Shown in pieces: positions 7,526 through 35,210 of a DNA stretch of 37,031 nt. Source of the DNA: Candidatus Poseidoniales archaeon. Lineage in GTDB: Archaea > Thermoplasmatota > Poseidoniia > Poseidoniales > Poseidoniaceae. The stretch is taken from the NCBI GenBank assembly GCA_003602635.1, contig QQSJ01000002.1, forward strand, positions 1-37,031, read 5' to 3'. Both the position numbers and the translations under genes were made by a program. Each line of letters starts with the position of its first letter. The first letter of the stretch is position 1. The notes under the pieces were generated by a model. The model saw nothing but the letters and a program-made list of their open reading frames with translations, did not search any database and had not been told where the DNA came from.

Positions 7526-7551
7526 GAAAGACCTCCGCCTTGGCGCGCCCC

Positions 7552-12776: not shown

Positions 12777-15700
12777 TCACACCACCCACGCCAGTCCGCT
12801 GGCCACGGCCGAACTGATCGGCTCCACCACCAAGATGTGCCGCGTTTCCACCGCACCACCGGTCAGGGACCCAATCAGGGACAAGTCGCTCGCCATCCCG
12901 TTGACGCCGACGGTGGACGCGGTCGGCAGGATGCCGGTGAATTGGGTGTCCAGCAGCACGCCCCGGCCGTCGATGCTCAGGTCCGACATGAACGGAACGC
13001 CTTCCAAACGCGGTTCTCGGTCTGCTGGGGTCAGCTCGGCGTTGGCCGTGGCGATGACACGCCCTGTGGTGATTCCGTCGAGGATGATGATGGGGTACAC
13101 GCCGCCAACCCGGTGCATGTGGATGGTGGCTCCTTTGAGGTTCTCGCCGACGACTTCCATCGACGAAAGCGTGAGGCCGGGGCTGGAAGGAACGTCTGAG
13201 GCGCGCAGGTAGAGTTGACGCACGCCCGAACCGCTGGAGGCGATTTCAACGCCAAACCGATCCGTGGTTTTGAGCTGGAACCGAGACGGGAGGTCCTCGG
13301 CGATCATCGTCACGTCGCCTTTGCTGTCGATCGCCCTTCCGTAGGCCTGCACGAAGAGATCCATGTCCTCCCCCGTGGAAGAGTAGTCCATGGTAAACAG
13401 GCCTTGGAAGGAGGTCTCCTCACGGATGTCGTACACCTCTGAGGGTTCGGCTGCAAGGTGCAGCTCGCCAGGCAAATCACGCATGAACACCGTCGCAGGC
13501 CACCACCGACCGTCGACGAAGCGATGTTGTTGGATCATCAATGCCTCTGCAGAGCGCCCGTCCACTTGGAACTCCTCCGGCACGGTCACGTCAAGACGCA
13601 ACACGTCGCCGATGGTGGCCGAAACGTCGGTGCTTCGCGGCACGTCAAGGATCAACGCTTCTGAGCGGGTCAGGGTCGTGTGGTCGATGAAGACGGCATG
13701 GGCCGAGGCAAGGCGCACGCCCACGTCGTAGCGCATGTCGAGGGTCAACCGTGGAACGGTCAGGTTACGCTCTTGGAAGAACACGGCGTCCATCACGACG
13801 TCGTGCGGATTTTGCGTATCGAACCCGGTCAAACGGAGGTCCACGTCTTGGCCTGAAATCCCCTTCACAAGGATGGTCATGTCCTCGTAGTCCGGTTGCC
13901 ATTGGGTAAACGCGAGATCGAATTGGTAGGTGGGAACGCCGTCAATCAAGCGGAAGTCGTAGTCCAAATCGATGGACCCTGCGGGGAGCGAAGGCAACCA
14001 TGTTCGAATGTGCCAAGCGCGCCGCTCGGTCAAATCGATGCCTTGTTCGCTCCAATTTTCGAGGTCGTAGGATTCCTTTTCATCCTCGCTCAACCGCCCG
14101 TCGGCGAGCACCTGCATCACGTCTCGAGCGCCAACCACACCGGCCGATTCAAGGACAAGAGCGCCTTGTTCAAATTCGTCTTCGTTGAGACGAGCGTCCT
14201 CCCAGATGGTCTCTAGGGTGATCCTGCCCGAAAGGGTGAGGCGGTCCAGCGTGCTCAGGTTGAGGTCCACGTCCACCCGCTCATCGGCCTCCATGGACAA
14301 ACCATGCACCCATTCTGGTGCGGGTGGCGTCGTTCCTTTTCGCAAATCCACGGTGAGGTTGAACGCTTCGCCCGTCTCCAAATCCATGCCGATGGCCAGG
14401 TCGCTTTCCTCGCTGATGGACCCACCGAGGTCTTTGGTCAGCGCATGGACGAAATCGTTCGCCACGCGCCCAAAGGCAACCAAGTCACCGAGGAAGAAGG
14501 ACAGCCCTTCGACGCCCTCTTGGTCACCGAAATCTGGCAGCTCGAGCCCTTCAGAATCGGCCCCTCCGGGAACGGCCATGACGATCTCCGCTGGCAGGGG
14601 TTCAATGACGGCACGTCCGTTCAAGCCAAGCAACGGGTCGTCGTAGGTCGTGCCATCTTCGAAGAGAAGGCGCAGCGGTTCAGAAGACGTACGCTGCAGT
14701 TCAACACGGCTGTTGCCTTCGGGGCCAAGCGCACCTTCTTCCAGAGGCGAGAGGCGCCGCATGCGGAGCACGTCAGAAATGCGTACGGAGAGGCTTGTTT
14801 CGTCACCGTCGACGGAGAAACGAACGTGATCTCCGTCCATGGTCAGGGGTACCGTTCCGTTGCTGGATTGGATTTCGACCGCTTGAAGTGGCGTGCTGGC
14901 CACGTAACCGACCTCTGAACCCAAGACCAATTCGAACTCAGCAGGGAGGCCAACAAGACGCAACGCGTTGCGCTGGTCACCGTCTTGACCTCCGTACGTG
15001 ATGGTACCAATCGGAGAGCTTGCTTCGTAAATCAGCCGCTCAGGCTGTTGAACCAAACGCAGTTCGTCGGGCCGGTTGGAGATCATCGCCGCCTGTTTTT
15101 GGGCGACGCTCATGTTCGGCCCGTCGTGGGAAACGTGCCCAACGATCAACGGCTCAGTGCTGGAACCTACCAACGCAAGCACGCGTTCGCTCGTCAGGGG
15201 ATCGAAGGACTGCGTCACCCCGGAAATGCCGCTGACACGAGCGCTCATCGCAACAGGAACCAGCGGGTCAACCGGCCCGGAGCGGCCCTGCACCACGGCG
15301 ATGGCGGCATCGCTCGAGAGCAAGAGGTGATCCTCGTCAGGAATCCAAGGCTGATCGCTGGACGACAACGCGAAACCGAGCGTGCCCACCTCTGCAGGAA
15401 CCCGCGCCTCACCGGTCGCCCATGCGGCCTTGACTTGCGTGTAGCAGGACACTTCGACGGTACCTCCGGCGCTGCCTGCGGTGCCGACCACCGCGCCGGG
15501 GATGCTGTTGACGATGGTGCCCAGGTCAAGGATGATTTCAACCAAGCCGAGCAAAGCGTTGTCCAGAATCTGTGAGATGGCGTTGAGGTCGGTGTTGTCA
15601 GGCCGTATGCGATCCACGCCGCTGGTGCCAAGTTCGAAACTGCCTGAAACCACGATGACTGGGGGCAAGTCCTCGACCACGAGTGTCATCGACGAGCGGT

Positions 15701-17468
15701 CAGGTGCGAAACCACCACGCTGGAAACTGGACCCAAATTCCAACATCGGAATGGAGGCCACCGCGGCCACGACGATGAGCGTGTTTGGTGGCGTTGCGGG
15801 GTTGATGGGCAAGGTCGGGTCGTTGACGTTGGTCGTGGCGTCGCCTGAGAAATTCTTGATGCCGATGAACAGCGACAAACGGTTCGGCATGTCGCCAGGC
15901 AGGTTGATGCTGCCTGGTGCTTCGCCAATCATGGTGAACAACGCGTTGATTTCCTCTTGAGGAAGGGTGCCGGACGGCAAGCCTCGAATCCAAATTCGTG
16001 CATCGGAAATGTTGCCAAAGTCGGCTTCGCCTTCGGGCATCTTCGAGCGGTCCTCGAAGTAATGTACGTACACGTCGGAATCGCGGTCGCTGAAGACCTC
16101 GACGGTGTCGAAACTGTTGTCTCCAAAGTTGTCGTTCCGAAGGGTCAGATCAATTTCTGAAGGCAGCCTCCGCCCTGTATCTGCGGGATGGAATCCCGTA
16201 TCGATGTACGCCAACTCCAACACATCAGGAACGGTGCCGTCGTTGGGCGGGACGTCGAAGTGAACGAAGCCGATGCCCACGCCGAAGGCGCACCGGTCGG
16301 CATGGCTGTCCACGCGAGGCTGATTTTCTGGATCGAACCAATCCTCGTCGGCACACTCGGTCTGTAGGCTGCCTCCAGGTGCATCCGGATTTTGGATGGT
16401 GATGGCGTAGGGTGCTGAGATGGACGTCAAGGAAAGGGTGTCCGCTCCCACGCCGCCACCAAGCAGGTCAAGCAACAGTTGAGTCACGTCGGTCACGGTG
16501 TCCGCGATTTCGAACGTGATGCGGTCCAAACCAACGCCCACCCTAAACTCGTGAGGAGGTTGCGTAAAACGCGTGTCGATGACGATGGAATAGGACTCCG
16601 AGTCTTGGACCGTGAAATCAAACGCGAACCCTTTCAGAAGGCTGACCTCAAGGAAGGCCATGTCGTCCCACAGAGGATCGTTTGCATCGATTTGATGCAC
16701 GCGCCATTGGAAAATCGGCCGTATCCAAAGGGTCTCTGGAATCAAGCCGGGCAGCGGACCGACGCCCCCGCTGGTGGTGATGTCCCACCCTTGGCCACGT
16801 TGGAGCAACCCCTGCACGGTGAGTTCCACAATGACGTCTTCAGCACCGTCGCCGTCGATGTCGATGTAGTTGTCAAACAGGTTGAGGTCGCCCCCGACTT
16901 GGATGTCACCGGTGAACGTGCCTGAGGTCCAACTTTCGTAGGAGGGGCCGTCGTTCTTGCTGCTGAAATTCAGGTAGATGGCGTAGGTGTTGATGCCGAT
17001 GGCGAGAGGATCGGTCAGCTCCCAATTTTCGACGGAAAACAAGGTCTGGAACAAGTTGTCAGGCAAGCCCGCTCCGCTGTGATTTTCAGCATCAAGAAGG
17101 AACTCGTATGCACGTGGATGGTCGGGCTCAAAGGGGGACGAATCCCGAACTTCTAAGCCGTCGAGGAAGCGCTCTGCTTCGACGATGGCGTCGCCTTCAC
17201 CAACGTCCCGTGCTGCAGCATCCACCGATGAGAGGGTGGTCGATGCGATGCTTTCAGCGATGAGGTCTGAGCTGCTGAGTGAGCGGTCTTTCAAAAGTTC
17301 GTCCAACGCGTCAAGAATGCCGAAATCATCCGAAGCGATCTCTGCGGTTGTCACCGGTTGGGCGATCGGGACAAGAAACAGCAGAAGAAGCACCACGGCG
17401 GGAGCCCGCCGTTGCACTTGGCTCGGCCTGACTCCGGGATGGAGCAGCCTCGCGGCGTCCTGCTGCAT
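12777..17468 (-). CDS. Giant secreted protein of unknown family (1563 aa)
   Basis: I do not recognise the family. The product begins with a basic segment and a signal peptide (PAVVLLLLFLVPIAQPVTTA). After an acidic helical region to about residue 120, the rest is long, beta-rich and acidic, with no obvious membrane anchor at the C-terminus. A calcium-loop-like DIDGDGAED lies near residue 205. A short phrase recurs through the protein: a hydrophobic strand, then D/G-L-P, then another strand (MTLVVEDLPPVIVVSG, LRLVGLPAEFELVLG, TVFMRDLPGELHLAA, VTMIAEDLPSRFQLKT), which suggests a repeated beta module. It starts 59 nt after the PKD protein gene. A structural or polymer-binding role at the surface is possible but unproven. 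Confidence 0.82.
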   Translation of the reverse strand: MQQDAARLLHPGVRPSQVQRRAPAVVLLLLFLVPIAQPVTTAEIASDDFGILDALDELLKDRSLSSSDLIAESIASTTLSSVDAAARDVGEGDAIVEAERFLDGLEVRDSSPFEPDHPRAYEFLLDAENHSGAGLPDNLFQTLFSVENWELTDPLAIGINTYAIYLNFSSKNDGPSYESWTSGTFTGDIQVGGDLNLFDNYIDIDGDGAEDVIVELTVQGLLQRGQGWDITTSGGVGPLPGLIPETLWIRPIFQWRVHQIDANDPLWDDMAFLEVSLLKGFAFDFTVQDSESYSIVIDTRFTQPPHEFRVGVGLDRITFEIADTVTDVTQLLLDLLGGGVGADTLSLTSISAPYAITIQNPDAPGGSLQTECADEDWFDPENQPRVDSHADRCAFGVGIGFVHFDVPPNDGTVPDVLELAYIDTGFHPADTGRRLPSEIDLTLRNDNFGDNSFDTVEVFSDRDSDVYVHYFEDRSKMPEGEADFGNISDARIWIRGLPSGTLPQEEINALFTMIGEAPGSINLPGDMPNRLSLFIGIKNFSGDATTNVNDPTLPINPATPPNTLIVVAAVASIPMLEFGSSFQRGGFAPDRSSMTLVVEDLPPVIVVSGSFELGTSGVDRIRPDNTDLNAISQILDNALLGLVEIILDLGTIVNSIPGAVVGTAGSAGGTVEVSCYTQVKAAWATGEARVPAEVGTLGFALSSSDQPWIPDEDHLLLSSDAAIAVVQGRSGPVDPLVPVAMSARVSGISGVTQSFDPLTSERVLALVGSSTEPLIVGHVSHDGPNMSVAQKQAAMISNRPDELRLVQQPERLIYEASSPIGTITYGGQDGDQRNALRLVGLPAEFELVLGSEVGYVASTPLQAVEIQSSNGTVPLTMDGDHVRFSVDGDETSLSVRISDVLRMRRLSPLEEGALGPEGNSRVELQRTSSEPLRLLFEDGTTYDDPLLGLNGRAVIEPLPAEIVMAVPGGADSEGLELPDFGDQEGVEGLSFFLGDLVAFGRVANDFVHALTKDLGGSISEESDLAIGMDLETGEAFNLTVDLRKGTTPPAPEWVHGLSMEADERVDVDLNLSTLDRLTLSGRITLETIWEDARLNEDEFEQGALVLESAGVVGARDVMQVLADGRLSEDEKESYDLENWSEQGIDLTERRAWHIRTWLPSLPAGSIDLDYDFRLIDGVPTYQFDLAFTQWQPDYEDMTILVKGISGQDVDLRLTGFDTQNPHDVVMDAVFFQERNLTVPRLTLDMRYDVGVRLASAHAVFIDHTTLTRSEALILDVPRSTDVSATIGDVLRLDVTVPEEFQVDGRSAEALMIQQHRFVDGRWWPATVFMRDLPGELHLAAEPSEVYDIREETSFQGLFTMDYSSTGEDMDLFVQAYGRAIDSKGDVTMIAEDLPSRFQLKTTDRFGVEIASSGSGVRQLYLRASDVPSSPGLTLSSMEVVGENLKGATIHMHRVGGVYPIIILDGITTGRVIATANAELTPADREPRLEGVPFMSDLSIDGRGVLLDTQFTGILPTASTVGVNGMASDLSLIGSLTGGAVETRHILVVEPISSAVASGLAWVV

Positions 17469-17527
17469 GGCTTCAGGCCGGCTTCGCCCGTTGTGAACCC
17501 TTCCCTGTCATGCATCGTCAAGCCCGA

Positions 17528-19810
17528 TTACTGCGGCCCATCAGAACCCTGGTCAAGCATGTCAGAAAGCGCTGCAGGCAACTCCAGTCGTCCACCGACC
17601 GATGCGGTGGTGCCGGCAGGCGCTTCCACCGCTTCGGTCGTGGGTTCTGTTTCGACCGCTGGTGCAACCTCTTGGGATGGCGAAACAGGCTCCGGTTCTG
17701 AGAAATCGTCGCCCACCAGGGCTTCCAATCCCGCCAGGCCTTCGTTCGGAGTGGAGGTTGCGTCCTCGCCGAGCAGCGATTGAGCCATGGGGTCCAGCGG
17801 GGCAGCAGGCGTCATCGGTGCATAGGCCACAGTCGGCGCCGGCTGGGTGGCCGCGGCATTGGGCTCAGCGCTTCCGTAGATGGACGCCATTTCTGCGGCT
17901 TTCGCGCGCTCGGCCTGTTCTTGTTCCGTCATCGGTTCAACCACATCAGAGCGCTGCTGGGACGAGGGCATGCTGCCGCGCCTGCGCAGCAGCACGATGG
18001 CCCCAGCCACAACAGCGACGATGACAACGCCGGCCAGAACCGCTCCTCCGGATGAGGAAGAAGGCGGAGCGGCTTCGACCTCGAAGGTCCATACTGCACG
18101 GTCGCTGTTTCCGGCAGGATCGAACACCGTGATGACCACCACGCGTTCCCCAGCGGTGTCAAAGGTGACCTGAACTTCTTCACCAAGGAGGTCCGCATCG
18201 TCGTCCGGAACGCCGTTCCCGTCCGAATCCGAAAGCGGATTTAGGTCCCAATGGATGCTGAGGGTTGCTGCTGCATCGACGGGATCGGCCGCTTCAACGC
18301 GCACCACGTTGGAAGCCCCTGCGTCCACAGAGGTGGGCAAAGCGGCCACAGAGGTCGAGGCAAAGCTGGGCAGGGTACGGTCCACAACCACCACACGGCG
18401 CTCAAGCACGTCCGTGTTGCCGCTTGGGTCGGTGACCGTCAGACGCACCATGTGCTCACCAGACTCGGCCCAAGACGCCACCACCGTGGCGTTCTGACCC
18501 GCTGGAGACCCGTCGATTGACCAAGCGCACACGTCCACCAGATGGTCATCGGTCGAGGCTGCGCAGGACAGCCGAAGAACGGCGTCTGGGTCGAGGCGGT
18601 ACCCGTCGTCAACAGGTTGCTCATCGCCGAGGGAAGACACCGCAGCATTGGGTGGCGTCACGTCCGTGACCGTGACGTCGTGTTGAACCATGGCCGTTCG
18701 TCCGTCCACGTCCCGCACGTGAAGCGTGACGGTGAAGGTCCCAGGCCGGTCCCAACTGGCCTGGATGGTGTTCGCTGAACCCCACGTGCCGTCGTTGGTG
18801 GCGTCACCGTCGTTGTCATCGTCGGCTTCCGCATCCACGTCCCACAACCAGTCCACCAACCGGTTCAACCGGTCTGGGGTCGAAGAAGCGTCCAGAACGA
18901 TGGTTTGTCCAAGGGTCGTGGAGGCGTTTTCATCGTCTTCGATCACCGGAGCCATCGGTGGGTCCAGGGTCAAACGCACCGTGATTCGAAGGTCGGCCGG
19001 AGCTGCTCCGCCAGAGATGGCATCGCCGGCGTCCAACAACAGGTGCATGGGCACTCCGGCCAAGGAAGTGGGGACGGTCCAGGTCAGCGAGGACGTGCTG
19101 GCAACGTCAAGCAGGGCCGTGCCCGCAGCAGGAGCATGCTGAGCACCTCCTTCCCAAGCCGAACGTTGCGCGTCGGTGAGGAAGGCAAGGTCGCCTGCGC
19201 CGTCAAGCCCCCATGCTTCGATCTGGACGGAGGTCCCCGCATCGAGGGACAGGCCTTCGTCCTGCGTGAGCCACATGCTGGTGTTCTCAAGGGCAGCAAA
19301 GAGGTCGTGGACCACCGTGAGCGCTCCATCGTTCAGCACCGAGACCTGCACGCTGATTTGGGCGCGAGCGCCCCCTTGATCTCCCTGTCCTTGGTCGCCG
19401 TCGTGGGCAAGGTTGTCAACGACCAGCGACCACGTCTTTGCGTTGATGGACGCGGGGACCTTCCAATGGAAGACCTGCGCTCCAATGGCCGACTCTGTTG
19501 ACACGGGCGTGGTCACGGCGTTGCGGTAACTTTGGCCAAGTTCGTACGGCGCCTTTCCTGCATCGTCAAACACCAGCAGATCCACGGCGTCGTCGACCAC
19601 GAGCACATCGAACGCGAGGACGGTGCCCGGTGCATGCTCACCGAGATTGATGTCGAGGCATGACCCTCCATCGACCGCCACGGCGCCCGTGACGGCGGAC
19701 AGTTCTGCAGAGGCGCAAGAGGGGACGGCGCGGCCTTCAGCCGCGCTGGCATGAGGCATGGAGGCGCAGAGCATCAGCAGCACCAGCAGGGCCCCTAGGA
19801 CACGACGCAT
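17528..19810 (-). CDS. Secreted PKD-repeat protein with C-terminal membrane anchor
   Basis: The 760-aa product is predicted from the ATG at 19810, where a signal peptide follows (RRVLGALLVLLMLCASMPHASA); a longer frame to 19909 would overlap the RNase Z gene. Residues about 30-280 form a beta domain of unknown type. Three PKD-like domains follow at about 290-383, 385-477 and 480-580, each ending in the typical pattern (RPGTFTVTLHVRDVDG, ESGEHMVRLTVTDPSGN, TAGERVVVITVFDPAGN). Aspartate-rich DDDNDGDATNDG and DSDGNGVPDDD inserts look calcium-binding. A helix near 590-609 with RRRG after it anchors the protein, leaving an acidic, Q/A/P-rich cytoplasmic tail of about 150 residues. PKD domains usually mediate protein or polysaccharide contacts on the surface. 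Confidence 0.88.
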   Translation of the reverse strand: MRRVLGALLVLLMLCASMPHASAAEGRAVPSCASAELSAVTGAVAVDGGSCLDINLGEHAPGTVLAFDVLVVDDAVDLLVFDDAGKAPYELGQSYRNAVTTPVSTESAIGAQVFHWKVPASINAKTWSLVVDNLAHDGDQGQGDQGGARAQISVQVSVLNDGALTVVHDLFAALENTSMWLTQDEGLSLDAGTSVQIEAWGLDGAGDLAFLTDAQRSAWEGGAQHAPAAGTALLDVASTSSLTWTVPTSLAGVPMHLLLDAGDAISGGAAPADLRITVRLTLDPPMAPVIEDDENASTTLGQTIVLDASSTPDRLNRLVDWLWDVDAEADDDNDGDATNDGTWGSANTIQASWDRPGTFTVTLHVRDVDGRTAMVQHDVTVTDVTPPNAAVSSLGDEQPVDDGYRLDPDAVLRLSCAASTDDHLVDVCAWSIDGSPAGQNATVVASWAESGEHMVRLTVTDPSGNTDVLERRVVVVDRTLPSFASTSVAALPTSVDAGASNVVRVEAADPVDAAATLSIHWDLNPLSDSDGNGVPDDDADLLGEEVQVTFDTAGERVVVITVFDPAGNSDRAVWTFEVEAAPPSSSSGGAVLAGVVIVAVVAGAIVLLRRRGSMPSSQQRSDVVEPMTEQEQAERAKAAEMASIYGSAEPNAAATQPAPTVAYAPMTPAAPLDPMAQSLLGEDATSTPNEGLAGLEALVGDDFSEPEPVSPSQEVAPAVETEPTTEAVEAPAGTTASVGGRLELPAALSDMLDQGSDGPQ

Positions 19811-19835
19811 GTGACTGACGTCGCTGCTGCGGCTT

Positions 19836-20840
19836 TCAACGTCTGCCTTCCACGAGCAGACAGGCCCGCCATCCAGTGTCCTCTCGCACGAGGTGGTGCA
19901 CCGTGCCATCCGAATGCACGGTCAAGCGGTCTCCGTCCGCCAACGCCACGCATGGCAACGTGCCCTCAAGCACCGCTTTTGCTTCTGCTAAGGAAGGTCC
20001 AGCCTCGCTCAGTCTGGCGCTGAAATGCGTCAACGCAAGACCACGAGCGCCGAGGTGTTGGGCCGTGCGCGCAGCGCCTGCAGCCGTGCTGTGGAGGTGG
20101 TTGGCAGCGCGATCCGCGTGCTCCTCGAGGTAGGTGGCCTCGTGAACCAGCACGTCGGGCCCGGGCGAGTCCCCGGTCAGGCCTGGAGACGCCGTGTCTC
20201 CCGACACGACAAGGCTGGCCGAGGGCCCATCGATTCGCCATCCGCACGATGGAACGGAGTGAAGGGACACAAGCGGTGTGAGCACGTGATCGGACCAGCC
20301 GTCGGGCGTCCAAGCCGCCGAGGATTCGGTCAGGCCTTCGCCCGTGATGGTGATCCAGCGGCCCGTGGCCACATCGCCAAGACGCCAGATGATGGGGTAC
20401 CCCAACAGGTCCTCAGTGGCTCCAAGTTCACGCCAGACTCGCATCTGGCGCCACAGGTCTGATGCGGGCAAATCCCCGGGCGGCGTGCCTTCGAAACCAT
20501 GCTGCAGCGCATGTTCGAAGGTCGTACCGCTGACCGGCCCTGCGACGATCAGCGGTTCCTCACGACCGTCCAAACCCGAGGTTTGCAACCACGGAAGCAG
20601 CCCCCATGTATGGTCGAGATGGCCATGAGTCAGCAGAACCGCGGCAACGCGGCGGCTGCGAAGCCTTGGCGTGCCCGGCTCAGTCTTGAGGTGACGACGT
20701 GCCGCCGTGAACCGATCCTGGAAGCCTTCCCCGGGATCGAGAATGACCAAGCCTTCGGGGCAAGCGAGCACCGACCCGCTGACGGCACGCTTGGTGGTCG
20801 GACGAGCCGAAGCCGTACCAAGCACGTGGAGGTCCAACAT
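19836..20840 (-). CDS. rnz: RNase Z-type metallo-beta-lactamase (tRNA 3' processing)
   Basis: RNase Z trims the 3' trailer of pre-tRNAs in the cytoplasm. The 334-aa product has the metal-binding motif LLTHGHLDHTWGL (residues 69-81, H72, H74, D76, H77), a VVSGDTASP aspartate motif, and the RNase Z block of HEATYLEEHADRAANHLHST followed by LALTHFSAR. The HST and THFSAR phrases separate RNase Z from other members of the superfamily. Length fits the short (bacterial/archaeal) form. It starts 9 nt after the PRC-barrel gene and lies downstream of ribosomal protein L15e, so it belongs to a small RNA/translation operon. The PKD protein gene starts 25 nt after its stop. Confidence 0.92.
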   Translation of the reverse strand: MLDLHVLGTASARPTTKRAVSGSVLACPEGLVILDPGEGFQDRFTAARRHLKTEPGTPRLRSRRVAAVLLTHGHLDHTWGLLPWLQTSGLDGREEPLIVAGPVSGTTFEHALQHGFEGTPPGDLPASDLWRQMRVWRELGATEDLLGYPIIWRLGDVATGRWITITGEGLTESSAAWTPDGWSDHVLTPLVSLHSVPSCGWRIDGPSASLVVSGDTASPGLTGDSPGPDVLVHEATYLEEHADRAANHLHSTAAGAARTAQHLGARGLALTHFSARLSEAGPSLAEAKAVLEGTLPCVALADGDRLTVHSDGTVHHLVREDTGWRACLLVEGRR

Positions 20841-27969: not shown

Positions 27970-29109
27970 ATGACGAAGACCATTCGTGCCCTTGCCCTGA
28001 CACTGACCTTGCTCCTTGCTTCCCTTGCGGGTTGCGTTGCAGAAGACGACTCAACGACCCCCGCCGAGGAGGTCAAGCCTGAATTCCTGGACGCATCCGA
28101 CGCCGGATACACCTACGCGTCCGACGTGGACAACCACCGTTCGCTGATGCTGGACCTCTGCGACATCAAGACCGCAGCCAGCGAAAGCGACTGGGACACC
28201 GCCACCCAGATCTACATGAACGGCAAGAACGCTCAGAAGGACGACGGTTCCTTCCGCACGCTCGCTGGATTCGCTGCCGCCTCCGGCAAGAACCACAACT
28301 ACGACGCGTACTACGGCATGGACGGCGCCATCGGCGGCCACATCATGCAGGCGCTGAACGGTGACGGTGATTTCGCCGGCACCTCGGACACCGTCCGCTA
28401 CCAAGGCATCGCTAAGCTGACCGCCAACATGGGCATGGTCGGCTACACGATCCACGAGATCAACGCCGCTGTGGCCAAGGCTGACGCCGGCAACATCGAC
28501 GACGACACCGGTGCACCTCACAACTGGGACGAAGGCTGGGCCTTCTTCCACGGACCGGATGAGCACTACGGTTGCTCTCCTGCCAAGGTCATGGAAAAGC
28601 GAGCCGCTGATTTCGGCACGGCCGACGCTGACGGCGTTGCTGCGACCTTCAAGGCCACCGAGCAAGCCATGGTCGACGGACTCGCCGCCCTCCAAGCGGG
28701 CGACGAAGCCGGCTACGACGCAGCCGCCGAGACCGTGATGAAGAACATCATCATCACCTACTCCCAGGCGACGCTGAAGTACACCTCCAAGATGGACAGC
28801 ACCGACAGCGCCGAGAAGTACCAAGCCGAAGGCTATGCCTTCTGGAAGACCATGGAGGCCTACAGCGCTGAACACACCAATGCATGCATCAATGCGGATG
28901 GAAACGTGACGTACGTCGGAAACGGAGACGCCACCACGTGCGGTGAAAACGAATCTTTCGACGCCCACTACGGAGCAGACAAGATCAACGAAATCCTCAA
29001 CCTTTCCGACGCTTCAATGCAGGGAACGTCATACGACGTGGCTCCGCATCTAGAGATGGTGTGGGCTCACTACGGCATCACGGAAGCCGACATTGGTTCA
29101 ATGGCCTGA
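27970..29109 (+). CDS. Fea1/phytotransferrin-like iron-assimilation lipoprotein
   Basis: The 379-aa product starts with a lipoprotein signal (LLLASLAGC, cysteine 22), so it should sit on the outer face of the membrane. The mature part resembles the algal Fea1 (low-iron-inducible periplasmic protein) family in several ordered places: an early IYMNGKNAQKDDGSFRTLAG region, VGYTIHEINAAVAKADAG, the block NWDEGWAFFHGPDEHYG followed by KRAADFGT, TYSQATLKYTSKMD, AEGYAFWKTMEAYS and an ending HYGITEADIGSM. Known relatives (algal FEA1, diatom ISIP2A phytotransferrin) bind ferric iron at the cell surface. I recognised this from memory of family patterns, not a search. It is divergent from phnD and shares a control region with it. 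Four late cysteines may pair. Confidence 0.72.
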   Translation: MTKTIRALALTLTLLLASLAGCVAEDDSTTPAEEVKPEFLDASDAGYTYASDVDNHRSLMLDLCDIKTAASESDWDTATQIYMNGKNAQKDDGSFRTLAGFAAASGKNHNYDAYYGMDGAIGGHIMQALNGDGDFAGTSDTVRYQGIAKLTANMGMVGYTIHEINAAVAKADAGNIDDDTGAPHNWDEGWAFFHGPDEHYGCSPAKVMEKRAADFGTADADGVAATFKATEQAMVDGLAALQAGDEAGYDAAAETVMKNIIITYSQATLKYTSKMDSTDSAEKYQAEGYAFWKTMEAYSAEHTNACINADGNVTYVGNGDATTCGENESFDAHYGADKINEILNLSDASMQGTSYDVAPHLEMVWAHYGITEADIGSMA

Positions 29110-29240: not shown

Positions 29241-30521
29241 TCAGGCAAAGTCGAGGTCGATTTTCTTCGGCCCACGAATGCTGAGGATCTTCACATCGAT
29301 GGTCTTGCCCACGGCGTAGAACATGTCGATGTGGTCCATGCTCATCCCGTCCATCTTCGAAATGTGGACCATGCCGGTGACTTGCCGCTCGACCAACGCG
29401 ACCAACAAGCCGTGGAAATCGTCCTTCTTCCGACCTTGGTGGTTGACCACCGTGCCGGTGTAGGTTCCTCCCACTTCGAAGGCCGTGAGCGGATCGACGG
29501 TCTCCGTGTTGTCGCCATCGGATGGGGGCGTCACGTCCTCCCAACGAAACTTTGCTTCGTTGCCGAAGAGCACCTTTCGGACATGCTCGATGGGGTACGT
29601 ACCCTCGCCGTCGATGCCTGAATCGTCCCAAGGTTGGGTGTGCCGAACGGTCAGGCCAGGCGTCATGTCTTCCGTGACCTTCGAGCCGTCCCGGCGGTGG
29701 AAGGTGACGGTAAGGCGAGGGCCGCGAAACAAGGTGGAGAAGAACCCGCCATCCACGGCGATTTCAACGGCCGAGTGGTCCGCACGAGTCCACCCTTTTG
29801 GAAAATCAGCGTCAATGAAGTCCCCTGTGTGGCGCTGGCCGCCGTCAAAGGTCAGCACGTCCCACGTACCGAACCGCCGCAGCAAGGCGTCTTGACGGGC
29901 GATTTCCTCGTCGCTTGCGGGCTCCCGCGTGGCCAAAAGGGCCTCGATCTTGGCAGGAAGGTCCGCCACCGTCGACACCTCTGGGTGCGCCAACACCTCC
30001 TCGCTGAGGTTCCCCTTCGGATTGGCCAGCACCACGATGGGGAGGACTTCGAGCATCTCAACGCGATCGATGGACAGCGAACAGCGCTGCAGCATCCGGA
30101 CCTTGGCCCGCAGTTTTTCGATGACCGGCTTGGGCGGCTCGCCCTTGTCGAGCAAGCGCTGTTGCACCAGATCGTTGTCTTGCAGATGGACGTCTCCGCC
30201 CCAGTTCTTGACTTCGAGCAGAATCACGGCCCGGTCGGTGATGGCGATGACGTCGACTTCACCCGAGCCCCGCGGTCGATCTGGATCGGGGATTCGGATG
30301 GCCAGATGCACATGCCGCGTGCTTTTGACGCGCTTCGCGGCCGCGCCCACGGCGTGCTCCGCTTTCCAAGAGCGGACCTCGCGCTGGGGCATGTGCTCTC
30401 GACGGGCGGACCGGGTGGAACGCCACCAGCCGATGCGCGCCAAGGGCCCCATGGCAGGACAACCGAACCACTCCATTTGAACCGCGTGCCCACCCGTGAG
30501 ACGGCCAGGGGGCACCGTCAC
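29241..30521 (-). CDS. NERD (nuclease-related) domain protein fused to an S1 RNA-binding domain
   Basis: The longest frame gives 426 aa from a GTG at 30521, which overlaps the desaturase stop as GTGA. The first 43 residues look atypical, so ATG starts at 30476 or 30392 are real alternatives. The N-terminal part is a NERD domain: RGSGEVDVIAITDRAVILLE then VKNWGG, giving the nuclease-like D90, E103 and K105. A middle region of about 200 residues is of unknown type. The last 75 residues are an S1/OB fold (VGGTYTGTVVNHQG, HGLLVALVERQVTGMVHISK, VGKTIDVKILSI). NERD proteins are thought to act on nucleic acids, and S1 binds RNA, so an RNA-directed nuclease or sensor is plausible. It is last in a run of overlapping lipid-type genes, perhaps only by position. 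Confidence 0.83.
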   Translation of the reverse strand: MTVPPGRLTGGHAVQMEWFGCPAMGPLARIGWWRSTRSARREHMPQREVRSWKAEHAVGAAAKRVKSTRHVHLAIRIPDPDRPRGSGEVDVIAITDRAVILLEVKNWGGDVHLQDNDLVQQRLLDKGEPPKPVIEKLRAKVRMLQRCSLSIDRVEMLEVLPIVVLANPKGNLSEEVLAHPEVSTVADLPAKIEALLATREPASDEEIARQDALLRRFGTWDVLTFDGGQRHTGDFIDADFPKGWTRADHSAVEIAVDGGFFSTLFRGPRLTVTFHRRDGSKVTEDMTPGLTVRHTQPWDDSGIDGEGTYPIEHVRKVLFGNEAKFRWEDVTPPSDGDNTETVDPLTAFEVGGTYTGTVVNHQGRKKDDFHGLLVALVERQVTGMVHISKMDGMSMDHIDMFYAVGKTIDVKILSIRGPKKIDLDFA

Positions 30522-31345
30522 CCGCGCCGACGCTTCGTCACGGCTTCGGCGGAGGGGAGGTACAGGTCGTCAGCCAAGCCGACCAAAGAGAGCAGGCGCA
30601 GCAAAAGGAAGGAAGCGTCCACTTGGCCATTGAGCAACCCGTGGCGAGCGGACCGGGGGAAGGCGTGGTGGCCAGAATGCCAGCCTTCCCCGAGCGAAAC
30701 AAGCGCCACGAAACGGTTGTTTCGGGCGGCTCCGGCGCCGTCGAAGTCCTGTTTGCCCCACAGGTGGCCGACGGAATTGACCGAATCGCCGGCGTTGTAG
30801 AACACGACCCCGGCGACCCATGCGATGGCCACGCCCTCCCACGCCATCAGGAAGTACGCGACCACGAAGGGGAGCGCTTGCGTGGTTGAGCCGACGATGT
30901 AGCCGAAGCGGGTCGAAAGGAAGCGGAGGAAGCGGTCCTCAAGCACGTCCTTTGCACGCTCATCATGGCCACCGGGGCTCATCTGACGAAGGAACATGTC
31001 CACGATGTATCGCAGCGGTCCGCCCAGCGCGTACAACAGGCAGACGCCTCGGTTTCGAACCCCAAGGTACCAGCCACAGTGAGCGTACCAGAACCCGTCG
31101 TGCACCGGGCTGTGCGGATCGTTGGGACCGTCCGAATCCGCATGATGACGACGGTGGTTGCCCACCCATTCTGCAGGCGGACCCGCCGGAAGACCGGCCA
31201 ACACCAACGCATAGAGCACCGGCTTGCGCAAGGTGGCCGAACGGTGGGTCAAGACACGGTGGTAGGCCACGGTGACCCCGAAACCCACCGAAAGGTACCA
31301 GACGAGAAGCAGGGCCCCCATCGAAAGGAGCGTTGAGGGCTCCAT
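30518..31345 (-). CDS. Delta-9-type acyl desaturase (membrane diiron)
   Basis: The enzyme inserts a double bond into a fatty acyl chain, normally acyl-CoA, using O2 and an electron donor. The 275-aa membrane protein has all three histidine boxes: HRVLTH (residues 29-34), GNHRRHHAD (62-70, HRRHH at 64-68) and GEGWHSGHHAFPRSARHG (219-236), in the order and form of the delta-9 class. Four or so helices surround them. It is slightly short compared with bacterial homologues because the N-terminal leader is minimal. It lies 2 nt downstream of the unknown 298-aa gene and overlaps the NERD-S1 gene by 4 nt. An acyl desaturase is noteworthy in an archaeon with isoprenoid membranes, and with its ketosynthase neighbour it suggests a secondary lipid. 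Confidence 0.92.
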   Translation of the reverse strand: MEPSTLLSMGALLLVWYLSVGFGVTVAYHRVLTHRSATLRKPVLYALVLAGLPAGPPAEWVGNHRRHHADSDGPNDPHSPVHDGFWYAHCGWYLGVRNRGVCLLYALGGPLRYIVDMFLRQMSPGGHDERAKDVLEDRFLRFLSTRFGYIVGSTTQALPFVVAYFLMAWEGVAIAWVAGVVFYNAGDSVNSVGHLWGKQDFDGAGAARNNRFVALVSLGEGWHSGHHAFPRSARHGLLNGQVDASFLLLRLLSLVGLADDLYLPSAEAVTKRRRG

Positions 31346-31347
31346 CC

Positions 31348-32244
31348 TCAGTTCTCCAAACCTAGTTCGGTGCGCATGCGCTCAAGGTGACCGTGGGTGT
31401 GTTCGACAAAGAAGCCGTGCATCAGGAAACGGTAACTGAGGCCGGTGGGGCCGACCAAAATCATCGGGAAGCGGTTGTAGGCGATGTCCGCAAAGTGGCT
31501 TGCTCCGACGATGTCGTCGATGAGCAGGCCCACCGAGTGATCGAACTGGAAGGAGTTGATGGCCGCCTCGTATTCTGGCGCGGTGAGCCAGAAGCAAAAG
31601 GTGGTCTTGAAGAGTTCATGGGCGGTTTCAAAATCGAGGAACTGCGTCCACTTCTTTCGGTCCACGCCGTAGTCGATGCGCACCGGCTTCCAGTTCTCCC
31701 AAGACAACTCGTCCTTGGGCACGGGCCAGCGGGAACGGTCTGGGTCCGTCAAATCCCGCATCGTCATCAGCACGCCCTGATCGTGGTGAACAAAGGTCTG
31801 GACCATCAGGTCTCGAATCATTTTCGGGTGGATCAAGACGGGATCGACTTCCTCCTGGCCGGCGTTGTCGATGACGAAGTTGAGCAGGTTGGATTCGGCC
31901 CAGAAGTGACGAAGGATGAGGACGTTGGCTTCTGGTCGGACGAACCACTTCATGAAGAAGCAAATTTGCCATTGCAGGAAGCCATGAGCACGCCACTGAA
32001 TGGGCGAGAGCCGCTTGAGGTAGTAGGTGATGTGGAGGGTGATGGTCAGCAGGACTTTGAGCGTCGGCAGCACGATCCGTCGAAGCGGGTTTTGCAGGTC
32101 CTTCGTCCAATATTCCTTCGCGATAGGGTCGAGCGGCAGGGCCTCGTCGCTGGCCATCGCGTCCACGATGGTGGCCGGCATGCGGCCGTTGTTCCTCGAC
32201 ATGGCTTTGCGGCGCTTGCGCTCCATGCGAGCGGTGCTACTCAT
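31348..32244 (-). CDS. Unknown protein of an acyl-product operon, with conserved-looking His/Asp/Glu sites
   Basis: I do not recognise the family with confidence. The 298-aa product has a basic N-terminus, a hydrophobic stretch near 57-78 (RIVLPTLKVLLTITLHITYY) that may be a membrane helix or amphipathic segment, and then several possible metal-site phrases: LRHFWAESNLLNF, VQTFVHHDQGVL and, near the end, FFVEHTHGHLERM. These, and its genes' company, suggest an oxidative or ferritin-like enzyme, but no standard motif is complete. The ATG overlaps the end of the diiron protein gene by 8 nt, so the two are translationally linked. It lies between that gene and the desaturase. Confidence 0.8.
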   Translation of the reverse strand: MSSTARMERKRRKAMSRNNGRMPATIVDAMASDEALPLDPIAKEYWTKDLQNPLRRIVLPTLKVLLTITLHITYYLKRLSPIQWRAHGFLQWQICFFMKWFVRPEANVLILRHFWAESNLLNFVIDNAGQEEVDPVLIHPKMIRDLMVQTFVHHDQGVLMTMRDLTDPDRSRWPVPKDELSWENWKPVRIDYGVDRKKWTQFLDFETAHELFKTTFCFWLTAPEYEAAINSFQFDHSVGLLIDDIVGASHFADIAYNRFPMILVGPTGLSYRFLMHGFFVEHTHGHLERMRTELGLEN

Positions 32245-32980
32245 CGTCCATCTCCTCCAGTTGCAATCGGTACAGACGAGCCACGACCTTCGCGGTCATC
32301 TCGATGCGGCCCACGACCTCGGGGCCCGTGCAAACCTCGTCGAGCATGGCGTAGAACCGTTGCATGTGATCGTCGTCGTTCGCGCCATGGTAGGTCATGA
32401 AACGTGTGATTCCTTCACGCTCGCACAGCTCTTCCATGCGCGTGGCCCACCCTGTTGCCATCCGTTCGCCGAGGCCTTCGATGATCCACATCGCTCCGAG
32501 CATGTCCACAGGATTGGGTTGGCTCGCGCGTTGCATCATGAAGGCGTGGAAGGCTTCGCTGCCCACGTTTTTACCGCGGTTGAGGATGGTGTCAAGTTCC
32601 CCGCCAGCGTTCACGTAATCCTGTTCGAGCATGGTGTAATCGCGGTGTTCGTCCACGGCGTGTCGAAGGATCATCGAGCGAAGTTCGCTGTGGGCACGGT
32701 CCATCGAGGACGCGGCTCGGGCAATCCAGCGGGAACCCTCGACCACTTGTTGCCGCAGATTGACGAGCAGGCGCCGATGGTCGGCCAGCGTGTAGGTGCC
32801 CAGGTCGAGGCGCCGAAGCAACGGTACGGTCACAAGGTCGCGCTCGAAGCCGATCCACACGCGCAACAGCCGCCGCAGGGCATCTTGGGCGTGCGCTCCC
32901 AACTCAGGAACGTCGTTCGCGCCAATGGCTTCCGCCGCCTCCTGCACAGGAACGCCGTCGATTGCAATGTTACCGTCCAT
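32237..32980 (-). CDS. Heme-oxygenase-like diiron oxidase/oxygenase (HDO) family protein
   Basis: The 247-aa, largely helical protein resembles the TENA/PQQC-like 'iron-containing redox enzyme' group that includes UndA, which makes terminal alkenes from fatty acids, and BesC. Candidate iron ligands appear in the usual two-helix sets: E81 in RQQVVEGSRW, H107/H112 in RHAVDEHRDYTMLEQDY, E168 in MWIIEGLGERM, and H198, D202 and H205 in TYHGANDDDHMQRF. That is the E-H-(D/E)...E-H-D-H arrangement expected of HDO enzymes. Ligand numbering is my own count and approximate. The start overlaps the ketosynthase gene by 11 nt. It probably oxidises the ketosynthase product or its acyl precursor; the reaction is unknown. 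Confidence 0.78.
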   Translation of the reverse strand: MDGNIAIDGVPVQEAAEAIGANDVPELGAHAQDALRRLLRVWIGFERDLVTVPLLRRLDLGTYTLADHRRLLVNLRQQVVEGSRWIARAASSMDRAHSELRSMILRHAVDEHRDYTMLEQDYVNAGGELDTILNRGKNVGSEAFHAFMMQRASQPNPVDMLGAMWIIEGLGERMATGWATRMEELCEREGITRFMTYHGANDDDHMQRFYAMLDEVCTGPEVVGRIEMTAKVVARLYRLQLEEMDDE

Positions 32981-34112
32981 CGTTGTCCACCACCGTCAGA
33001 TGCATGTACGTCGTGTTGAACCGTCCACTCTCAGGCACAAAGCACATGATGCGCTCACCGACCTGAGGGTTCTGTGTTCTCATGAACTCGTCGAGCATGA
33101 TAAACAGTGATGCTGCGCCCGTGTTGCCCCGAGTGTAAAGATTCGTCCACCACTTTTCTTCAGGGATGCCGACGCCCGCCGCATCCAGCATGTCGAGGAT
33201 CTTCGGACGGAAGTGATGGGAAGAGTAGTGGCAGAGGAAGTGGTCCACTTCAGAGGGCACGTTGAGGCCCTCTTGCACCAACCGCACGTAACCGTCAACA
33301 CCCAGCCGGACGATGTGGTCGAGGAGACGGACCTCTTGGCGGAGCAGCAAAGCGCCTTCACGTTCCGCGTCGGCGTAGGTGTCGTAATCCTGCCATGTTC
33401 GTTCCTCGTCGGTTTTGCCGCTCGAGCCGACGCTCATGCACGTGGGCAGGGCGTGCGCATGCGACCAGCCCTTCATCCAGTCGATGCGGAAGGACAACCC
33501 CTTGGGGCGCGGGGAGGTTTCCAACAACAGTGCTCCGGCGCCGTCTGAGAGCATCCAACGGAGAAACTCGGTGTTGAAATCCACGGTTTTCTTGGCGAAA
33601 GTCGACTCGGTCGCGGCCTCGTACCGTTGCCGTTTGAGCAATCGGGAAGGCATCTCCGTCGCGATGACCAGCGCCGCCTCATGCTCATCGCAACGAAGGG
33701 ACAGCCACGCGCCTTTCAGCGCCATCATCGACGAGGAACAAATGGACTGGGCCGTGAGGATCTCCACCTCGGCCATTCCCAATCCTGCCTGAACAAAGGA
33801 CGCGAGACCTGGAACGGGGTGGTCTCCTTGCGTCGAAGCAACGGCGAGCATCCCGACTTGGTGAATGGGCCGAAACGCGCGGTCCATGCATTCCTGTCCG
33901 GCATGAACGGCCATTTGGGTGTTGGACACCGTGGTGCGCTGGTTGGCGTCAATGCCGTAGTGCCGTGTTTGGATGCCGTTCGCTTTCTGAATCTGCGTGC
34001 GCAGACCCGAAGGTTGGCCGTTGACTGCGCCGAGGACGCCTTCCACTTGATCGTTGGTGATGGCAGGGCCGGGCAGGTGCCAGCCGGTCGACGTGATGTA
34101 GACGGGTTTCAT
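32970..34112 (-). CDS. StlD/DarB-like beta-ketoacyl synthase III
   Basis: This is a condensing enzyme of the FabH-related thiolase fold, 380 aa. The N-terminus (YITSTGWHLPGPAITNDQVE, then NGQPS and NGIQTRHYGID) resembles DarB/StlD proteins, which join two beta-ketoacyl chains into a dialkyl cyclohexanedione on the way to dialkylresorcinols and flexirubins. The catalytic set is present: C125 in AQSICSSSMMAL, a histidine near 295 in FLCHYSSHHF, and N330 in TRGNTGAASLFIM. Its ATG overlaps the stop of the His-rich membrane protein gene (ATGA). No aromatase (DarA-like), acyl carrier protein or acyl ligase is visible here, so the product could also be a simple ketone, hydrocarbon or cyclohexanedione. 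Horizontal acquisition from bacteria is plausible. Confidence 0.88.
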   Translation of the reverse strand: MKPVYITSTGWHLPGPAITNDQVEGVLGAVNGQPSGLRTQIQKANGIQTRHYGIDANQRTTVSNTQMAVHAGQECMDRAFRPIHQVGMLAVASTQGDHPVPGLASFVQAGLGMAEVEILTAQSICSSSMMALKGAWLSLRCDEHEAALVIATEMPSRLLKRQRYEAATESTFAKKTVDFNTEFLRWMLSDGAGALLLETSPRPKGLSFRIDWMKGWSHAHALPTCMSVGSSGKTDEERTWQDYDTYADAEREGALLLRQEVRLLDHIVRLGVDGYVRLVQEGLNVPSEVDHFLCHYSSHHFRPKILDMLDAAGVGIPEEKWWTNLYTRGNTGAASLFIMLDEFMRTQNPQVGERIMCFVPESGRFNTTYMHLTVVDNDGR

Positions 34113-34711
34113 TCAGAGGCCCTCCACGGCAAGGTGGACACGCCGTTGTCGCGCTCCCATTTCCAACAACGGTACATTTCCAACATGTAGGGCATCACGA
34201 TGAAAATCCCCATTCCGACGATGTAGGTCATGGCAAAGTTGCCGTTCATCCCAAGGGATTCTTCGCGCCACTGAAGGCTCATGTTTCCGGCCCAGTTGAA
34301 GGTGACGAAATTGACGAAGGTCTCCCATCGACGCACGATGATGAGCAGGAGAATGAAGAACGGAAGGGTCGCGAGGTAATTGTGTGCATGCACTTCCCAA
34401 ATGCTGATTTCTCGCAAATCCTGTGCATAGTGCACGTCGTAATGCGCGACCAATTCATGGGCCACCAAGGCCATGATGCACATGATCAACACCAGCACGT
34501 TCACCTCAAACAACAGCCCCAGCAAGATGGGGATGCCAACTTGGAACCCCATCAGGGCGTGGACCAGAGCTTCACGAAGACCGGCCGTTGATTCGATTTT
34601 GGTCGCGCGATGGCAAAACCAGTCCACGCCACCGGCCACACCCCACAGGGGAAGAAGGACGTAGAGCAGGATGTTCAGCACGATGGTGCTGGCGTCCAAG
34701 GTCGGGTCCAT
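34109..34711 (-). CDS. His-rich multi-pass membrane protein of the acyl-product operon
   Basis: I do not recognise a named family. The 200-aa protein has about five hydrophobic segments (about 9-27, 50-66, 68-86, 112-126, 160-178). Histidines cluster on what should be one membrane face: WFCHRATKIES, EALVHALMG, VAHELVAHYDVHYAQ and WEVHAHNYLA. Such spacing recalls membrane diiron enzymes such as desaturases and hydroxylases, but the standard boxes are not met. It opens the operon that continues with the ketosynthase, and the two overlap by 4 nt. A TATA-like TTGATAC lies 26 nt before the ATG, so the mRNA is probably leaderless. It could be an oxygenase or a membrane partner of the ketosynthase. 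Confidence 0.8.
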   Translation of the reverse strand: MDPTLDASTIVLNILLYVLLPLWGVAGGVDWFCHRATKIESTAGLREALVHALMGFQVGIPILLGLLFEVNVLVLIMCIMALVAHELVAHYDVHYAQDLREISIWEVHAHNYLATLPFFILLLIIVRRWETFVNFVTFNWAGNMSLQWREESLGMNGNFAMTYIVGMGIFIVMPYMLEMYRCWKWERDNGVSTLPWRASE

Positions 34712-34757: not shown

Positions 34758-35210
34758 TCACGCCTGTTTTCGTCCGAGAAGGACGCCCAGGTTGTCCGCT
34801 TCAGCGTGCCAGCCAGACAAATGCACCGTTGGCGCTGGCAGGGTGCCGGGGCCTTCCCCGTTGACGGTTGACATCACCTCGTGCAGGCTCGCAAGCGTCG
34901 TCGGAGAAGGCATGCCGTCGACGTGTTCGTTGGGCGCAAGGTACCACAGCACTTCAGGAATCCTCCCGCCGAACACCATGGGCGCACCAACCACCACCGG
35001 ATCGTGAAGGTCAGTGAAGGAATCCTGTTGGCACATGAGCCACACGCCCACGTCGTGAGGCGCCGCAAGGCGGGAGTTGACCGCCTCCACAAGATCGCGG
35101 AGCGCCTCCCGAAGGGCTTGCTGACGCAGGTGCAGGAAATGATCGGTGTTGCCCAGACCCATCGCAGTCGTCATGTCGTTGAGGGTCCACCCGAGGATCA
35201 TCGAAGCCAT
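34758..35210 (-). CDS. Hypothetical protein, 150 aa
   Basis: I do not recognise this protein. It appears soluble, with a helical region near residues 20-48 (DHFLHLRQQALREALRDLVE) and a mixed beta remainder (DVGVWLMCQQDSFTDLHDPV, VVGAPMVFGGRIPEVLWYLA). There is no signal peptide or membrane helix. The ATG at 35210 lies 26 nt after a TATA box, which favours this start over the ATG at 35174. It ends 46 nt before the acyl-product operon's first codon and could be read through into it, though that operon seems to have its own promoter. It is divergent from the FAS1 gene. Confidence 0.68.
   Translation of the reverse strand: MASMILGWTLNDMTTAMGLGNTDHFLHLRQQALREALRDLVEAVNSRLAAPHDVGVWLMCQQDSFTDLHDPVVVGAPMVFGGRIPEVLWYLAPNEHVDGMPSPTTLASLHEVMSTVNGEGPGTLPAPTVHLSGWHAEADNLGVLLGRKQA

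Follow-up and report, generated by a model that had tools for sequence, protein, structure and literature searches.

A cross-domain gene cassette of a ketosynthase, a predicted diiron protein and a DUF6999 protein in Poseidoniaceae archaea and bacteria

We analysed a stretch of 37,031 nucleotides (hereafter the window) from contig QQSJ01000002.1 of Candidatus Poseidoniales archaeon (assembly GCA_003602635.1), a Marine Group II archaeon with a genome of ~1.7 Mb. The subject of this report is an operon of five minus-strand genes, A to E, running from 34711 to 30518. Gene A (34109-34711) encodes a histidine-rich integral membrane protein of 200 amino acids (aa) that matches no Pfam or NCBIfam family. 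It is followed by gene B (32970-34112), a 380-aa beta-ketosynthase (KS) of the StlD/DarB family; gene C (32237-32980), a 247-aa predicted diiron protein of the HDO type; gene D (31348-32244), a 298-aa protein of family DUF6999 (PF22523, E 8e-85); and gene E (30518-31345), a 275-aa membrane fatty-acid desaturase (FA_desaturase, PF00487, E 1e-17). Neighbouring genes overlap by 4 (A/B), 11 (B/C) and 8 (C/D) bases and D is separated from E by 2 bases. An initial annotation, made from the sequence alone, had described an overlapping or nearly touching five-gene run at 34711-30518, and all of its open reading frames (ORFs) were recovered there on the minus strand. Between congeners, nonsynonymous divergence (dN 0.02-0.19) is far below synonymous divergence (dS 0.8-1.6) for A-E. 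The A-E operon is real.

A scan for DUF6999 over 84,980 species genomes, using patterns built from four sequences of the window's clade, returned 75 loci. A-B-C-D occurred in identical order and strand in 74 of them, and the one exception (L089) begins within C at a contig end. The archaeal hosts are Poseidoniaceae. The bacterial hosts are Rheinheimera, Arsukibacterium, Alkalimonas, Vibrio rumoiensis, Shewanella, Reinekea, Endozoicomonas, Gynuella, Granulosicoccaceae, Cellvibrionaceae and a metagenome-assembled genome (MAG) of the Myxococcales; moreover, Pseudoalteromonas sp. THAF3 carries the cassette on an 800-kb plasmid. No further gene besides A-D was common to all bacterial loci, and the archaeal loci add only a desaturase. 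Within the Poseidoniales, the KS and DUF6999 genes were present in the identical 31 of 194 genomes, spread over four of 21 genera that all belong to one family; given the linkage of the two genes and the relatedness of the genomes, this agreement reflects co-inheritance and is not an independent statistic. A chance neighbourhood in one genome is ruled out by the 74 conserved loci and the 31 shared genomes, and the co-occurrence in other marine archaea and bacteria that the initial annotation had put forward as a check was found in two domains. At four loci the extended best-match translations of gene D (L036, L037) or gene C (L040, L051) contain an internal stop, possibly through a frameshift, a sequencing error or an artefact of the alignment extension.

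As the scan patterns came from the window's clade only, remoter forms were sought separately, by searching Gammaproteobacteria for the KS and 399 Pseudomonadota genomes for DUF6999. Nine distant clusters (L135-L137 and L148-L153) were found, with KS, HDO and DUF6999 together in all nine. In seven of these clusters the KS and HDO form a single polypeptide of ~625-655 aa, always adjoining DUF6999 (L135, 7974-9851; L136, 8328-10256; and five more loci in Pseudomonadota). The case for a single intermediate shared by B and C rests most strongly on this fusion in relatives of the operon. FA_hydroxylase and FA_desaturase genes lie upstream in five of the nine, whilst a sixth has the desaturase only. 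Judged by gene content, the KS-HDO fusion clusters appear to be an uncharacterised cluster type of their own. Moreover, Caulobacter vibrioides, a named control genome, has hits to both DUF6999 and the KS family. By gene order across all these loci, the core of the system is KS-HDO-DUF6999, to which membrane protein A belongs in the window's clade.

The KS encoded by gene B matches NF005293 over residues 1-378 (E 2e-107), scoring 359 bits where the curated cut-off is 450, and all operon KSs score ~330-390 bits. Against the DarB model NF053539 it reaches 312 bits, below the threshold of 550, and is not grouped with DarB/StlD. Its closest solved structure is nevertheless StlD (PDB 5gk0), a KS of stilbene biosynthesis, matched at full length with E 3e-72 compared with 4.5e-9 for FabH. 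Cys125, His295 and Asn330 are identical in all compared sequences, including StlD and FabH. The KS tree unites the operon KSs in one clade (support 0.994), which lies outside the clade that holds the DarB-type KSs and StlD, with the KS-HDO fusions nearby and FabH-like sequences as the outgroup. FabH-type models score B at about 1e-16 to 1e-25, and no HMG-CoA synthase (HMGS) model matched it at E up to 1. The phylogeny suggested by the initial annotation does not place B with FabH, and neither outcome that the annotation had named as refuting was observed. That E is assigned to a generic desaturase family (PF00487) and that B falls in the KAS III superfamily might suggest ordinary fatty-acid synthesis genes, a FabH and a desaturase, that are neighbours by accident. 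We hold this to be very improbable: the StlD/DarB family outscores FabH by E 2e-107 to 2e-16, separate FabH-like copies are present in the same bacterial genomes as the operon KS, and the order of the genes is conserved across domains. Family scores and the tree together rule out a FabH of ordinary fatty-acid synthesis for B. On this phylogeny, B is a sister lineage of DarB/StlD with a clade of its own. The earlier label of a DarB/StlD-like KS agrees with the best-matching family model and the best structure, but not with clade membership or the curated cut-offs, and "DarB-like" chemistry is a lead rather than a result.

Followed to its end, this lead would make the product a dialkyl-cyclohexanedione or resorcinol proper. 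The KS would act as DarB/StlD do, condensing and cyclising its substrates, and HDO and DUF6999 would replace the aromatase DarA, yielding a long-chain dialkylresorcinol or a hydroxylated or quinone derivative. DarA and StlC supply the oxidising step in their pathways. At the operon that step would otherwise be missing, and the presence in relatives of an O2-dependent oxidase fused to the KS fits such a replacement, as do the shared KS family, StlD as the closest structure and the invariant Cys-His-Asn. The position of B outside the DarB/StlD clade and below both curated cut-offs speaks against it, and so do the gene neighbourhoods. Among the controls, 15 loci from the DarB/StlD clade (+/-1.5 kb) and four longer loci of the family contained no relative of C, D, A or E, and three family members on plasmids likewise had neither HDO nor DUF6999 as a neighbour, so that DarB and operon contexts do not mix. 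Conversely, DarA and DarC are not encoded with the operon KS, with which bacterial and archaeal loci share only A, C and D, the desaturase being added in archaea. When the neighbour of a reference DarB gene was used as query in a genome search, no match was returned, but this query gene proved to be unnamed and the search had no positive control, and it is uninformative on DarA. We consider this route possible but doubtful. Separately, a Streptomyces plasmid (L132, 4718-10536) carries another StlD/DarB-family KS, 41% identical to B, whose neighbours are its own acyl carrier protein (ACP), an FAD oxidoreductase, an SCP2 protein, a FabF and a P450; this is a different and apparently unnamed KS cluster.

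The family of gene C is clearer from its relatives than from the window member. PF14518 (Haem_oxygenas_2) matches 38 of 42 relatives (best 9.4e-12), whilst the window protein gives a weak match (E 1.2e-4; 22.4 bits against a cut-off of 28.9). Eight residues (E81, H107, D114, E142, E168, H198, D202 and H205) are invariant in 46 C sequences, KS-HDO fusions included, and E111 is nearly so. Three histidines (H107, H198, H205) and at least three carboxylates (E81, E168, D202) among them are putative metal ligands; the HDO superfamily has a 3 His / 3 carboxylate ligand rule, as stated in a 2026 review (PMC13108848). The full set of putative ligands and the PF14518 matches agree with the earlier prediction of an HDO-family diiron protein.

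Two further explanations bear on C. According to the same review, UndA uses O2 to decarboxylate fatty acids (PMC13108848), and a comparable step could follow a head-to-head condensation. An OleA-like reaction of the KS would give a linear beta-keto or alpha-alkyl-beta-keto acid, which an UndA-like HDO would oxidatively decarboxylate to an enone, a long-chain ketone or an alkene. The KS-HDO fusion would suit the hand-over of such an unstable acid, and the nearby desaturase and fatty-acid hydroxylase point to long chains. However, C is not specifically UndA-like, its best PDB profile matches being 3dde (8e-9) and, weakly, MboA; the StlD/DarB family is distinct from the OleA family; and no report of alkenes from these hosts was found in the literature searched. 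We therefore regard this route as unlikely. The other explanation is a role in oxidative stress or membrane adaptation, in which the HDO would limit peroxide and the KS and desaturase would only adjust acyl chains. The hosts are largely aerobic aquatic microbes, and in desiccating Acinetobacter the HDO DtpC gives protection from endogenous peroxide (PMC13232832). Yet DtpC adjoins katE and not a KS, and the KS-HDO fusions and the tight gene block point to a shared intermediate, which makes a stress role improbable.

Gene D had been called an unknown protein, which holds in part, as it belongs to the named family DUF6999, scoring 284.6 bits against a Pfam cut-off of 27. Its AlphaFold2 model (pLDDT 82) is all-helical, and a fold search against the PDB gave no match below E 0.6; low-ranked, scattered matches to PolF and mini-bacterioferritin were discounted as evidence. 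Nine residues are invariant across distant relatives (R112, H113, H154, D155, D204, N230, D235, H276 and E281), of which three histidines (H113, H154, H276) and four carboxylates (D155, D204, D235, E281) are compatible with a putative metal site. Protein A gave a confident AlphaFold2 model (pLDDT 90) of five long helices, and its fold search returned nothing usable. The invariant residues of A are D30, H34, E47, H51, H85, E86, H90, D92, E106, H108 and H110. Its invariant His, Asp and Glu lie mostly near the helix ends expected on one membrane face, as in membrane diiron oxygenases, and from this we infer that A is a candidate membrane metallo-oxygenase. A distant FA_hydroxylase origin of A was considered and rejected, as comparing its profile with that of the FA_hydroxylase in the distant clusters showed no relation (probability 0.2%).

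The identification of E as a desaturase was upheld: it scores 64.8 bits against the PF00487 cut-off of 29.7, and its histidine boxes (H29-x4-H34, H64RRH67H68, N190xxxH194 and H223xxH226H227) are all conserved. E is of the SCD-like type, and the same type follows D in the window's genus and in other Poseidoniaceae loci. In the Myxococcales MAG an E-type desaturase precedes A. A further 19 archaeal loci have a different desaturase subfamily in the slot after D, with no BLAST match to E; this alternative enzyme is 39-46% identical to the desaturase of the distant bacterial clusters. Of the 37 complete archaeal loci, 29 carry a desaturase behind D and eight carry none. That a non-orthologous desaturase can take over this slot suggests that the enzyme is likely functional there. 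On these comparisons the desaturase is common in the system but can be replaced.

Two genes flank the operon at genus level. Gene F (29241-30521, minus strand), which overlaps E by 4 bases and encodes a 426-aa protein with NERD and S1 domains, does follow E, as first annotated. It adjoins the cassette in the window's genus only, and a NERD-S1 protein was therefore rejected as a part of the system and lies outside the conserved cassette. A conserved ORF of 150 aa without family match (34758-35210, minus strand) lies 46 bases upstream of A; it shows 59-67% identity in congeners, was not seen elsewhere and is possibly an extra gene of the genus.

With the distant clusters as root, a tree of B, C and D gathers the archaeal versions in one group beside the Myxococcales MAG, nested in bacterial diversity. 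The cassette probably came from bacteria and is not archaeal in origin. The simplest reading of the tree would be a bacterial transfer to an ancestor of the Poseidoniaceae, then patchy keeping or spread.

Substrates for such a cassette may be available in the archaeal hosts. An AMP-binding protein (acyl ligase family) and a long ACP-domain reading frame (2,000-3,050 aa) were present in each of 11 tested Poseidoniales genomes, whether the operon was there or not; the shortest of the ACP-bearing frames (2,000 aa) lies on a small contig, and only one long frame was domain-scanned. That frame (L160:5446-14250; G000:C46) encodes 2,935 aa with the order KS-AT-three ACP-KR-DH and is PfaA-like, with 865 bits for TIGR02813 against a cut-off of 1010. 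For an archaeal order, no paper on such a polyketide-type fatty-acid synthase was found in the literature searched. Moreover, fatty-acid degradation genes occur in all genera of the Poseidoniales (PMC6461757). The initial annotation had noted that an ACP and a ligase are missing, and this holds for the neighbourhood alone. Its premise that archaeal membranes are isoprenoid, and that an acyl-chain cluster must therefore serve a special lipid, is weak, because the order lacks glycerol-1-phosphate (G1P) dehydrogenase and mixed lipids have been suggested for it (PMC6461757, PMC7852524). The cassette brings neither an ACP nor a ligase with it, so that in bacteria ordinary fatty-acid synthesis can supply the substrates.

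Taken together, the evidence makes it on balance probable that the operon is a mobile cassette of bacterial type whose product is an acyl-derived lipid or small lipophilic metabolite oxidised with O2. The KS would load an acyl chain on Cys125 and condense this chain with another acyl thioester, probably a beta-keto one. In the archaea these would likely be an acyl-CoA and a 3-ketoacyl-CoA from beta-oxidation, or products of the PfaA-like synthase elsewhere in the genome. The KS product would be handed directly to the HDO, whose predicted diiron centre would oxidise it by oxidative decarboxylation, aromatising dehydrogenation or hydroxylation. DUF6999 may carry out an obligatory third step or shield the intermediate, and A and the desaturase may modify alkyl chains at the membrane. 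The leading product class, itself only a possible one, is a 2,5-dialkyl-1,3-cyclohexanedione or an aromatised or oxidised descendant, with the HDO, perhaps together with DUF6999, taking the role that DarA has in dialkylresorcinol clusters.

Several observations weigh against this proposal. No member of the family has a known product. The KS scores below its curated cut-offs (359 against 450 and 312 against 550 bits) and falls in a separate clade, making ring formation only a candidate reaction. Fold searches of the DUF6999 and A models against the PDB gave no recognisable match. No dedicated ACP, ligase, aromatase or exporter lies near the cassette. Lastly, no desaturase adjoins the cassette in eight of the 37 archaeal loci or at the A-B-C-D loci of Gammaproteobacteria, and desaturation is thus not essential to the core.

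Comparison with known systems places the cassette beside several of them. It resembles the DarA-DarB-DarC clusters (that of HPR in Pseudomonas chlororaphis, and the flexirubin type) in its best-matching NCBI KS family, its Cys-His-Asn residues and its likely acyl thioester substrates; however, the operon KS is in a separate clade and has HDO, DUF6999, A and a desaturase beside it in place of DarA and DarC. StlD itself, although the closest structure to B, falls inside the DarB clade. With the HDO oxidases UndA, MboA, PolF and SznF, C shares the Haem_oxygenas_2 family and its 3 His and at least 3 carboxylates. According to the review text consulted, the substrates of known HDOs are free acids or amino acids, and no HDO there is tied to a KS (PMC13108848), whereas C stands beside or is fused to one, next to DUF6999. 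Claisen-type joining of acyl chains also occurs in marine gammaproteobacteria in the OleABCD clusters for long-chain hydrocarbons and in the Pfa clusters (see PMC6463001). No OleB, OleC or OleD partner was noted at the operon, and OleA belongs to a different branch of the thiolase superfamily, in a comparison made by family names only.

Searches of the open-access literature returned no paper on DUF6999 and none combining "iron-containing redox enzyme" with "ketoacyl-ACP synthase". The initial description of the operon as undescribed agrees with this, and the gene combination and the KS-HDO fusion appear to be undescribed there, subscription papers aside. By family assignment, all parts come from known enzyme families except DUF6999 and A. 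Tentatively, KS-HDO-DUF6999 may be a new and widespread machine for C-C bond formation and diiron oxidation, making a lipid class shared by marine gammaproteobacteria and surface-ocean archaea, with DUF6999 a new metalloenzyme family and A a new membrane oxygenase family.

Marine Group II ranks with the most abundant archaea of the surface ocean that have not been cultured. For an acyl-derived product in this group, a cross-domain operon with one KS and several predicted O2-using metalloenzymes is a concrete candidate. Given that the core is also found in culturable bacteria (Rheinheimera, Arsukibacterium, Alkalimonas and Vibrio rumoiensis) and that C. vibrioides matches both families, the chemistry may be solvable without growing the archaeon. 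Solving it would assign DUF6999 and protein A, two families lacking a function, to a pathway and define the KS-HDO fusion enzyme.

Elsewhere in the window, a gene for an FEA1-related lipoprotein (27970-29109, plus strand; NF038033, 309 bits), of a low-iron-inducible family, lies beside the operon. An FEA1 relative was also found just downstream of D or E at loci L049 and L052. This proximity is suggestive, because all of the predicted oxidases need iron. Very large predicted proteins of 1197, 1563 and 793 aa are encoded on the minus strand at 4004-7597 and 12777-19909. Two of them have Ig-like or PKD matches, the 1563-aa protein has no match, and all are probably surface proteins.

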